A DNA stretch of 49,185 nt from Gammaproteobacteria bacterium (GTDB lineage: Bacteria; Pseudomonadota; Gammaproteobacteria; Arenicellales; Arenicellaceae), in the NCBI GenBank assembly GCA_017854775.1, contig JAFMHC010000012.1:1-49185 (forward strand), read 5' to 3'. Under the pieces are notes generated by a model that saw only the letters and a list, made by a program, of their open reading frames with translations, made no database searches and was not told where the DNA came from. Below are positions 334-49,181 of the stretch, in pieces; the first letter of the stretch is position 1, and each line of letters starts with the position of its first letter. The position numbers and the translations under genes were made by a program.

Positions 334-425
334 CTCATAACGCCTTTGCAAGGGGCGGCGCGTTTTATCGCCGTCCCGCGCAGTGAGTGAAACGAACGTA
401 GCAAACTTTGCGAACTTGTTAGAGC
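334..425 (-). repeat. attC-like recombination site (integron cassette)
   Basis: Minus strand GCTCTAACAAGTTCGCAAAG...GGGACGGCGATAAAACGCGCCGCCCCTTGCAAAGGCGTTATGAG: terminal GTTA/TAAC core sites, imperfect palindrome, located between two small ORFs on the same strand. Confidence 0.8.
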
Positions 426-46274: not shown

Positions 46275-47440
46275 TTGGGCAGGTTCTCACTCAAAAATTT
46301 GACCATATTACCGCCCATGATTTTACTAATTTGGGTCTCGGTAAAGCCCGCTTTAAGCATCTCATCGGTTAACGCAACCAGCTCACTAGTATCAAACCCA
46401 GCGGTGATAGAACCATCATAATCAGAGCCTAAGGACATATGATCCTCGCCGACTAATTCAAGACCATACTTCATTGCAGCGACTACGTCTTTAGGGCTAT
46501 CGCCACAAACCGCACCATCCCAATAACCCACCGCAATTAATCCGCCGTTGGCCGCGATTTGCTGCATCAAGCTATCAGCAATATTACGCGCCGTATCGCA
46601 ATGTCCCTTAAAGCCTGTATGACTGACCACTACCGGCTTGCTGTACAGAGTCAAGACCTCAGCGACGACCGCCTCGGAAGAATGTGACACATCTAATATT
46701 ATGTCCAGCGAGTCAATTTTATTAATCACTTGCCGTCCAAAATCGGTCAAACCCGCTTGGCTGACCCCATGTAAAGAAGCACCCAGCTTGTTATCAAAAA
46801 AGTGCTGTAAGCTCATCATCCGAAAGCCGGCATCAAACAAAGTTTGTACGTTAGCCAATTTTCCATCTAAAGCATGTGACCCCTCAGTACCCAGCAAGCC
46901 ACCGACCAAGGTAGTATTGCTAAGACGCTTAGTAATGAAATCAGCGAGATCCGTTTTTGATTTAATGATCATCAAGTCATCAGGGTTTTGCTCTTGAAAA
47001 CCATGCAGTCGATCAGCTTGATGCAAGGCACGCGCCGTTAGGCTACTCCAGGTAGCTGTCGGCCAAAGCTGAATAATCGCAAGCTTAGTAATGCTATCAG
47101 CGGCATCAGCCGAGTTCTGATCGTAATTTAAACCGCTTGGCGATTTGGTAACCGTGGTGAACATCTGCAAACTAACGTTGCCAGCCTGCAAACGCGGTAT
47201 ATCAACGTGGCCGTAATCGTAACGCTTACCCAAATCACGATTCCATAACAAACTATCTGAATGCCAATCTCCGATGGTCAGCCTAGCATGTAACTCCTTA
47301 GCCGCATCACTGACAACAAAAGGTGCATGAGGGGTAACCCCATTCAGCGATTTGTCGGTCATCCTAGGCGCAAAAGTAAAAAGCCCAATCAGCGCAAGTG
47401 CCATGACGAGAACAAAAATAATAAGGGCCTTCTTAATCAT
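46271..47440 (-). CDS. Membrane dipeptidase (renal dipeptidase, M19 family)
   Basis: 389 aa; IGDWHSDSLLWNRD, LGTEGSHALDG, LDVSHSSEAVV, VSHTGFKGHCDTARNI, GSDYDGSI; ATGA overlap with downstream hydrolase. Confidence 0.9.
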   Translation of the reverse strand: MIKKALIIFVLVMALALIGLFTFAPRMTDKSLNGVTPHAPFVVSDAAKELHARLTIGDWHSDSLLWNRDLGKRYDYGHVDIPRLQAGNVSLQMFTTVTKSPSGLNYDQNSADAADSITKLAIIQLWPTATWSSLTARALHQADRLHGFQEQNPDDLMIIKSKTDLADFITKRLSNTTLVGGLLGTEGSHALDGKLANVQTLFDAGFRMMSLQHFFDNKLGASLHGVSQAGLTDFGRQVINKIDSLDIILDVSHSSEAVVAEVLTLYSKPVVVSHTGFKGHCDTARNIADSLMQQIAANGGLIAVGYWDGAVCGDSPKDVVAAMKYGLELVGEDHMSLGSDYDGSITAGFDTSELVALTDEMLKAGFTETQISKIMGGNMVKFLSENLPN

Positions 47441-47816
47441 TATTGATACCTATTTTAGTGTTTGGTTTTATAACTTGAACTTTCTTCGTAGAATGCATGC
47501 GCCGCAACAATTAGGTGGGTCGTTTGCGTATCTGTAAAACTAAGGTTTTATACAGTATATCAAGCAAGCATGAAAAACGTCGCCCCCTTTCACGCCGCTG
47601 GCTGCGCGTTAGCATTCTAGCGCTTCAAAGAAAACGTAACAAAAATAACACTTTAAAAGAATTATTGAGAATACATACACGCACTGTTATTGTGGAAACA
47701 GAGCTGGCTCGCTTTGCCAGTCGACTAGAGAAGAAAAATAGGGAAAATTGGAATGAAAACAGAACCTTGCAGGTTGAACCTAGAATTTTACTCCGGTGGA
47801 AACCGAGCTTGCGCAG

Positions 47817-47832
47817 TAATAAGCTGTTATGG
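47817..47832 (+). other. Inner boundary of right cassette array (TAATAAGCTGTTATGG)
   Basis: GTTATGG core site at 47826; TAATAAGCTGTTA is identical to the minus-strand sequence at 696-708 at the left array boundary. Confidence 0.5.
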
Positions 47833-48105
47833 TTATTCAAAAGTAATCAGGCTGGCGTAAACGAAATCAAGATACTAATTATGCTGTCGGTTGGTCGTTA
47901 AAAACGTGCCAATTAGCAACGAAATAGCAGTAGCATTTTTTTGAAGTAACGTACTCGGCTAGTTAAAGACAACTAGTACTTTGCGGTTTAGTTCGGCAGC
48001 GACAACACCGAGAATTGTGGCTACTAAGGAAACCCTCAATTGGGTTGCTTCAAGTTAAAGCGGGTTGTGGCATACTAATCGAATGCAACAAATGAAAAAC
48101 ATAAC
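47830..48105 (+). repeat. ORF-less repeated cassette body, copy 1 (most diverged)
   Basis: Starts GGTTATTCAAAAGTAATCAG, ends ...GTTGTGGCATACTAATCG...AAAAACATAAC; homologous to copies 2 and 3. Confidence 0.85.
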
Positions 48106-48180
48106 AAGAGCCAAAACTAGCGCACACTGCGTGTGCTCGGACGGCGATAAAGCGCGCCGCCCGTTTGTCGGGCGTTATGG
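48099..48180 (+). repeat. attC-like site
   Basis: ACATAAC...CACACTGCGTGTGCTCGGACGGCGATAAAGCGCGCCGCCCGTTTGTCGGGC-GTTATGG. Confidence 0.8.
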
Positions 48181-48453
48181 TTATTCAAAACTAATCAGCC
48201 AGGTGTAGTCTCAATCGAGATACTAATTATTCTGTTGGTTGGTCGCTAACAAATAAGCGAACCAGCAACGAAATAGCGACGGGTTTTTTTGAAATAGCGT
48301 GTTCGACTAGTAAATAACCAACTCGTATTTTGTGGTTTAGGTCGGCAACGCCAACACATAGAATTGTGGCTACCACGTAAAGCCCAATAGGGTTGCTTCA
48401 AGTTAAATCAGGTTGTGGCATACTTAATTAATGAACCAAAAGAAAAACATAAC
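48179..48453 (+). repeat. ORF-less repeated cassette body, copy 2
   Basis: GGTTATTCAAAACTAATCAGCCAGG...ATACTTAATTAATGAACCAAAAGAAAAACATAAC. Confidence 0.9.
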
Positions 48454-48528
48454 AAGAGCCAAAACTAGCGCACACTGCGTGTGCTCGGACGGCGATAAAG
48501 CGCGCCGCCCGTTTGTCGGGCGTTAGTT
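48447..48528 (+). repeat. attC-like site, identical to 48099-48180 through the GTTA core
   Basis: ACATAACAAGAGCC...GTTTGTCGGGCGTTAGTT. Confidence 0.8.
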
Positions 48529-48781
48529 TGATTTTTTATTTCTTGGTGTTGATTATGAACTTCGTAGTTAGCATCAAAGAAGGCTTTACAGGTTAACTTG
48601 GTATCGGGCTACCAACCTTACTGGTTCGTGGCAAAGGATCTCGTGTGGGCTCGACCACTTAGATCAGGTTTCCTTGTTAAACAAATAGGCTTCGGGTTAT
48701 TCTGCGGCAACAACATAAGGAAGTGGTTTAGTTCAACGCACTTCGTAGAAAGTTAAAGGGTTATTCAAGTTTTGAGTTACA

Positions 48782-48860
48782 AACTAACAAGTTCAAAAAC
48801 TATCATTCGCTGCGCTCATTCGGACGCGCTATTCGCGCGCCCGTTTTAAAGGCGTTATGG
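48782..48860 (+). repeat. attC-like site of a different, short ORF-poor cassette (48523-48859)
   Basis: CTAACAAGTTCAAAAACTATCATTCGCTGCGCTCATTCGGACGCGCTATTCGCGCGCCCGTTTTAAAGGCGTTATGG. Confidence 0.8.
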
Positions 48861-49133
48861 TTATTCAAAACTAATCAGTCTGGTTTAGTCTCAATCGAAA
48901 TACTAATTATTCTGTTGGTTGGTCGTTAACAAATAAGTCAATCAGCAGCGAAATAGCGACCGTATTTTTTTGAAGTAGCGTACTCGGCTAATTAAAGCCA
49001 ACTCGCATTTTGTGGTTTAGGTCGGCAACGACAGCACATAGAATTGTGGCTACCAAGTAAACCCCAACTGGGTTACTTCAAGTTAAATCAGGTTGTGGCA
49101 TACTTAATTAATGAACCAAAAGAAAAACATAAC
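48859..49133 (+). repeat. ORF-less repeated cassette body, copy 3
   Basis: GGTTATTCAAAACTAATCAGTCTGG...ATACTTAATTAATGAACCAAAAGAAAAACATAAC. Confidence 0.9.
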
Positions 49134-49181
49134 GAATAAGGATAAGTCGTGCGCAGCCACGACTTTATCCAATTGTTGAAC
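49127..49181 (+). repeat. attC-like site of distinct, short architecture
   Basis: ACATAACGAATAAGGATAAGTCGTGCGCAGCCACGACTTTATCCAATTGTTGAAC: imperfect palindrome with bulges; GTTGAAC fits GTTRRRY. Confidence 0.65.

Follow-up and report, generated by a model that had tools for sequence, protein, structure and literature searches.

The window, that is, the whole stretch of DNA analysed here (49,185 nucleotides), is the entire contig C272 of a draft genome that comprises 381 contigs and 4.86 Mb with 4.2% contamination. At its right end lies a short integron array, in which an attI site is followed by copy 1 of a recurrent body, copy 2, a cassette of another sequence family (cassette B), copy 3 and then the contig end, with the body copies occupying positions 1, 2 and 4. 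The features of this array are as follows:

47536 to 47829, forward strand: leader and attI core at which an array without integrase starts; the core AATAAGCTGTTA is at 47818-47829
47665 to 47693, forward strand: Pc-like promoter directed into cassette 1, TTGAGA-17-TATTGT, the second hexamer preceded by TG
47827 to 48174, forward strand: gene-less cassette 1, 348 bp, made up of the body (about 47830-48105) plus attC
48101 to 48179, forward strand: attC of cassette 1, 85.5 bits, identical to the attC of cassette 2
48175 to 48522, forward strand: gene-less cassette 2, 348 bp
48449 to 48527, forward strand: attC of cassette 2, 82.5 bits
48523 to 48854, forward strand: cassette B, 332 bp, gene-less, longest sense ORF 52 aa, other sequence family
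48784 to 48859, forward strand: attC of cassette B, 80.1 bits
48855 to 49175, forward strand: gene-less cassette 3, 321 bp, same body with a different attC
49127 to 49181, forward strand: attC of cassette 3, short type, with a strong single-stranded DNA fold (z -3.8)

The original prediction had described a non-coding integron cassette in triplicate with a body of roughly 275 bp, and this description is borne out by the cassette boundaries, the attC sites and the absence of a gene, with bodies of about 276 bp at 47830-48105, 48178-48453 and 48858-49133. Each copy has the anatomy of an integron cassette, which consists of a GTTRRRY-like core at the 5' boundary and a 3' attC with palindromic arms: GTTATGG opens each of the three copies, and an attC closes each. 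In a search with a covariance model trained on ten attC sites, which gave 50 matches in the genome, copies 1 and 2 had attC sites of 82-86 bits in addition to recognised 5' boundaries. Copy 3 starts after the recognised attC of cassette B, and its own attC is of the kind found behind aadA1.

As had been claimed, neither strand has a reading frame that stays open across the body, and no short ORF is common to all three copies. The longest sense ORF is 31 aa in copies 2 and 3 and 45 aa in copy 1, where it reads through the attC. By the published definition of a gene-less cassette, which allows no ORF above 210 bp or 70 aa (PMC11014356), all four cassettes of the array are gene-less, as against 1 of the 35 other delimited cassettes in the genome (Fisher p 6e-5, a comparison in which the three copies are not independent). 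A frame-shifted pseudogene was considered and rejected, as six-frame Pfam scanning of copy 1, with partial coverage of copy 3 and cassette B, returned nothing above the cut-off. Cassette B, tried as a relative of the body, was not accepted as one (p 0.016 with copy 1, 0.23 and 0.13 with the other copies); it carries a sigma-70-like site of its own, with the -10 hexamer TATTCT at 48698. The three copies are almost certainly one gene-less cassette family in an integron array. Gene-less cassettes are an already known kind of object, and what is unusual here is their repetition and their location.

The bodies are 79% (copies 1 and 2), 82% (copies 1 and 3) and 90% (copies 2 and 3) identical. Substitutions are not clustered among the three copies (longest conserved run, p 0.45), and this even spread leaves constraint on any part of the body unproven and makes drift a strong rival explanation. 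Perhaps, then, the cassette is dead or neutral, either a former gene cassette or random DNA with an attC, drifting and copied by integrase activity. In keeping with such drift, the substitutions show no codon periodicity (chi2 p 0.79, 0.54 and 0.30), gene-less cassettes deriving from broken genes have been reported (PMC11014356), and an array without an adjacent integrase would lose its cassettes more slowly. Relatives also lack a homologue: 109 genomes of the order, a 369-genome sample of the class, phages and plasmids (the last two by blastn) yielded no full-length body, and exact body motif patterns were absent from an 84,980-species genome collection and from viral contigs. The sole class-level match (G452:C11:6843-6875, E 9e-4) was set aside as a probable chance match; the DNA around it is unrelated and rich in repeats, and has no credible attC. 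Against inert debris, indels are few (3-4 gap columns per pair) at about 20% divergence; the same body is reused in three of the four cassettes, and elsewhere in the genome (on contig C100) its 3' part has been retained next to another gene. Six-frame Pfam scans of the bodies, with no match above the cut-off, disclose no gene of origin. We regard a dead cassette as possible, with perhaps a third of our confidence behind it.

A second alternative is that the body acts as an RNA. The original prediction went further in this direction, proposing a structured RNA whose substitutions preserve pairing in two hairpins, the second of them terminator-like. The first, AACCC/GGGTT, is indeed complete in both copy 1 and copy 3. 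In copy 2, a C-to-G substitution turns pair 212-223 into G-G, and the arms pair only after a one-base slip, which means that this is not a preserved pair; the hairpin is likewise not kept in the C100 relative. The second hairpin has eight pairs in copy 3 and seven in copy 2, with three pairs maintained through one-sided G-U changes, but two of its pairs are broken in copy 1 (C-A and G-A). It encloses a 25-nt loop and falls outside the minimum-energy fold of every copy, and a terminator scan finds no site in the bodies. Pairs changed on both sides are absent from both hairpins and from a third stem taken from the fold of copy 3. Across the body, stems that vary and still pair stand at the level of column shuffles (9 vs 6.2, p 0.19; one-sided changes 10 vs 8.6, p 0.35; two-sided changes 1 vs 0.65, p 0.47), in tests that have low power with just three sequences. 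The alifold of the full body is ordinary (sense strand z = -0.6, opposite strand z = -0.55), the two hairpin regions folded copy by copy lie near the shuffle mean apart from one region of copy 2, and no Rfam family matches the body. With no covariation, an ordinary fold, no terminator and no Rfam match, neither a structured RNA nor selection on its structure is supported. The structure known to be under selection in cassettes is the single-stranded DNA fold of the attC, which lies outside the body.

The broader suggestion of a structured or trans-acting small RNA, comparable with sRNA-Xcc1 of Xanthomonas, draws on the non-coding nature of the body, on one copy 2 region that folds better than its shuffles (z -2.2), on an excess of shared invariant stems over column shuffles (18 vs 9.6, p 0.025), and on the precedent of a cassette-borne small RNA (PMC12444791). 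Set against the lack of compensatory change, the missing terminator and Rfam match, and two hairpins of which one is lost in the C100 relative and the other broken in copy 1, these points leave a small RNA unlikely.

A further feature of the array is the way in which bodies and attC sites are combined. Between copies 1 and 2, 84 bp running through the attC are the same at every position (48094-48177 vs 48442-48525) although the bodies are only 79% identical, a coincidence with a chance of about 3e-9 at the divergence of the bodies. Copies 2 and 3, conversely, have the most similar bodies and different types of attC. At about 84% identity, the attC of cassette 3 resembles the one located behind aadA1 in a mobile integron on an IncC plasmid, and the differences between the two keep the stem. 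On C100 (69463-69578), the 3' module of the body is joined to yet another attC sequence, such that the same body 3' end is found with three different attC sequences, the junction lying at or just 5' of the R'' box. This pattern suggests that body and attC may exchange as separate modules, by integrase or by homologous recombination. The short attC of cassette 3 is also unlike the attC of about 78 bp that most cassettes in the genome carry.

The 3' module is the part of the body for which a function can best be proposed. Body positions 165-281 (the last ~115 nt) recur on C100 with E 3e-15 when cassette-bearing loci are searched with a profile of the three bodies, and C100 is the one further place matched among these loci. 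There, a 131-aa ORF ends before the module and an attC follows it, and the cassette gene after that encodes a DMP19-like protein. It is otherwise much changed, with 55% invariant columns, and yet the 22 fixed letters of the motif TTCAAG-N16-TGTGGCATACT are unchanged. The richest 28-column window, which overlaps this motif, has 23 invariant columns (scan p 0.024), and the conservation of C100 against the consensus reaches p 0.05, which is weak alone. The cores of the module, each with an extended -10-like site TTCAAG-N16-TGTGGCATACT, are:

48049 to 48076, forward strand: 3' module core of copy 1
48397 to 48424, forward strand: 3' module core of copy 2
49077 to 49104, forward strand: 3' module core of copy 3

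This site is the top sense sigma-70-like site in all three copies, outscores every antisense site and points toward the next cassette, and TGTGGCATACT fits an extended -10 element. The promoter matrix approximates published sigma-70 frequencies, and rankings alone were used. The score is matched by 9-10% of shuffled cassettes (p 0.09-0.10 per cassette), equal or better scores occur somewhere in some gene-bearing cassettes, and the site goes unreported in a stricter scan for two hexamers. The motif was found in 0 of the 17 other congeneric genomes searched. Promoters of gene-less cassettes are not reliably predictable in silico (PMC11014356). Nevertheless, sense promoter activity has been measured in most of 29 gene-less cassettes tested from Vibrio (PMC11014356) and in some ORF-less cassettes of oral Treponema (PMC6557892). 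From the candidate site taken together with these measured activities, we infer that a promoter cassette is the best-supported function. The prediction of a sigma-70 promoter in the body comes from a statistically weak motif, and we rate it a little below an even chance.

If so, each body would carry a sigma-70 promoter near its 3' end, with TGTGGCATACT as the extended -10, from which RNA would start a few bases 5' of the attC and continue into the next cassette. The gene-less unit would thereby be a mobile promoter for a neighbouring captured cassette. In the array itself, a downstream gene driven by the copies is not seen: copies 1 and 2 precede gene-less cassettes, and the contig ends past copy 3.

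The place at which the array begins is of greater interest. The window array is not a complete integron with intI beside attI; no intI remnant is present at 47440-47830, and a gene for an M19 dipeptidase adjoins. The identity of the core AATAAGCTGTTA as attI follows from its consistent position 5' of intI in relatives, where it lies (as ATTAAGCTGTTA in G015 and G017) about 300 bp 5' of intI in G005, G007, G010, G013, G015 and G017, a position confirmed on sequence in G005, G007, G013 and G015. The window leader is homologous to leaders on C110 (83%) and C321 (74%) of the same genome, and many leaders keep a CTGT-N8-ACAG-like LexA box. The Pc-like promoter has 9 of 12 matches, and such sites are no more frequent in the region than in shuffles; TTGAGA-17-TATTnT or a near form stands at the same place in five of the six own-genome leaders tested and in the intI-linked attI of G007. 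With four gene-less cassettes lying directly 3' of this promoter, it might be supposed that the body is a spacer behind Pc, lowering or separating the expression of later cassettes. No sequence feature predicts such a role, which we consider very improbable.

A second, outward-pointing array occupies the left end of the window:

336 to 422, reverse strand: attC of the left array, 65.4 bits
696 to 707, reverse strand: attI core of the left array

In all, eight attI cores stand at array-like places in the genome (on C25, C110, C189, C236, C245, C321 and at both ends of C272). There is one near-complete intI frame, on C285, which has no internal stops and is cut at the contig end, and intI fragments remain on C25, C189 and C236. 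A draft with this level of contamination could mislead, and the relative G015 argues against that: in only 20 contigs, with 99% completeness and 1% contamination, it has nine attI cores (on C1, C2, C4, C5, C10 and C11) and one intI, and in the stretches fetched, six of the eight cores without an intact intI have attC matches downstream in the same orientation. In both genomes, on contigs of sufficient length, most attI cores precede attC arrays. The congener G002 has at least three attI cores (C27, C37 and C52); it gave no integron integrase family match at E 1e-30 or better, and a 38-residue intI-like fragment lies at C27.

Judged from their sequence, the orphan attI sites resemble platforms from which the integrase has been lost or was always absent. 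We hypothesize that one integrase may serve all of these attI sites in trans. The cassette-moving integrase of the window array would, similarly, presumably act from elsewhere in the genome, and we hold it an even chance that the locus is explained by the combination of a gene-less cassette family at an integrase-less attI, an integrase acting in trans and a promoter at the 3' end of the body. It is tempting to speculate further that the integron of this genus is spread over many chromosomal attI/Pc sites, most without an integrase, each starting its own array, supplied in trans by a single integrase and populated by gene-less cassettes that bring their own promoter and whose bodies and attC sites are exchanged separately. 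As a whole, this picture may well prove wrong, and we offer it tentatively.

Gene-less cassettes are a recognised class that has been little sampled, and a triplicate family with a 3' module common to a gene cassette would help to test whether they are mobile promoters or debris. The orphan attI sites matter more than the cassette family and deserve a separate study, as they make testable both the service of many dispersed platforms by one integrase in trans and the idea that some arrays filed as CALINs actually start at attI.

Among known systems, the gene-less cassettes of the Vibrio superintegron (PMC11014356) are alike in having no ORF above 70 aa, an ordinary 3' attC, a tandem arrangement in a chromosomal array and a candidate sense promoter. 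They are longer (491-666 bp vs 321-348 bp here, where the promoter is predicted only), and unlike them, the present cassettes include one sequence family in three copies within a single short array, whose starting attI has no intI beside it. The ORF-less cassettes of oral Treponema (PMC6557892) can likewise take the first position next to Pc and have a sigma-70-like promoter; they belong to another bacterial group, and one of them is active on both strands. The sRNA-Xcc1 cassette of Xanthomonas (cited in PMC12444791) also carries a non-coding function, a likeness of description, and differs in that a discrete RNA or structure is unsupported for the body studied here. Finally, the window array resembles the CALINs of IntegronFinder 2.0 (PMC9024848) as an attC array without an adjacent integrase, and differs from them in having a recognisable attI and a Pc-like promoter, with a LexA-box-like sequence in several leaders. 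IntegronFinder detects no attI outside class 1 (PMC9024848), and such sites would therefore be filed as plain CALINs.
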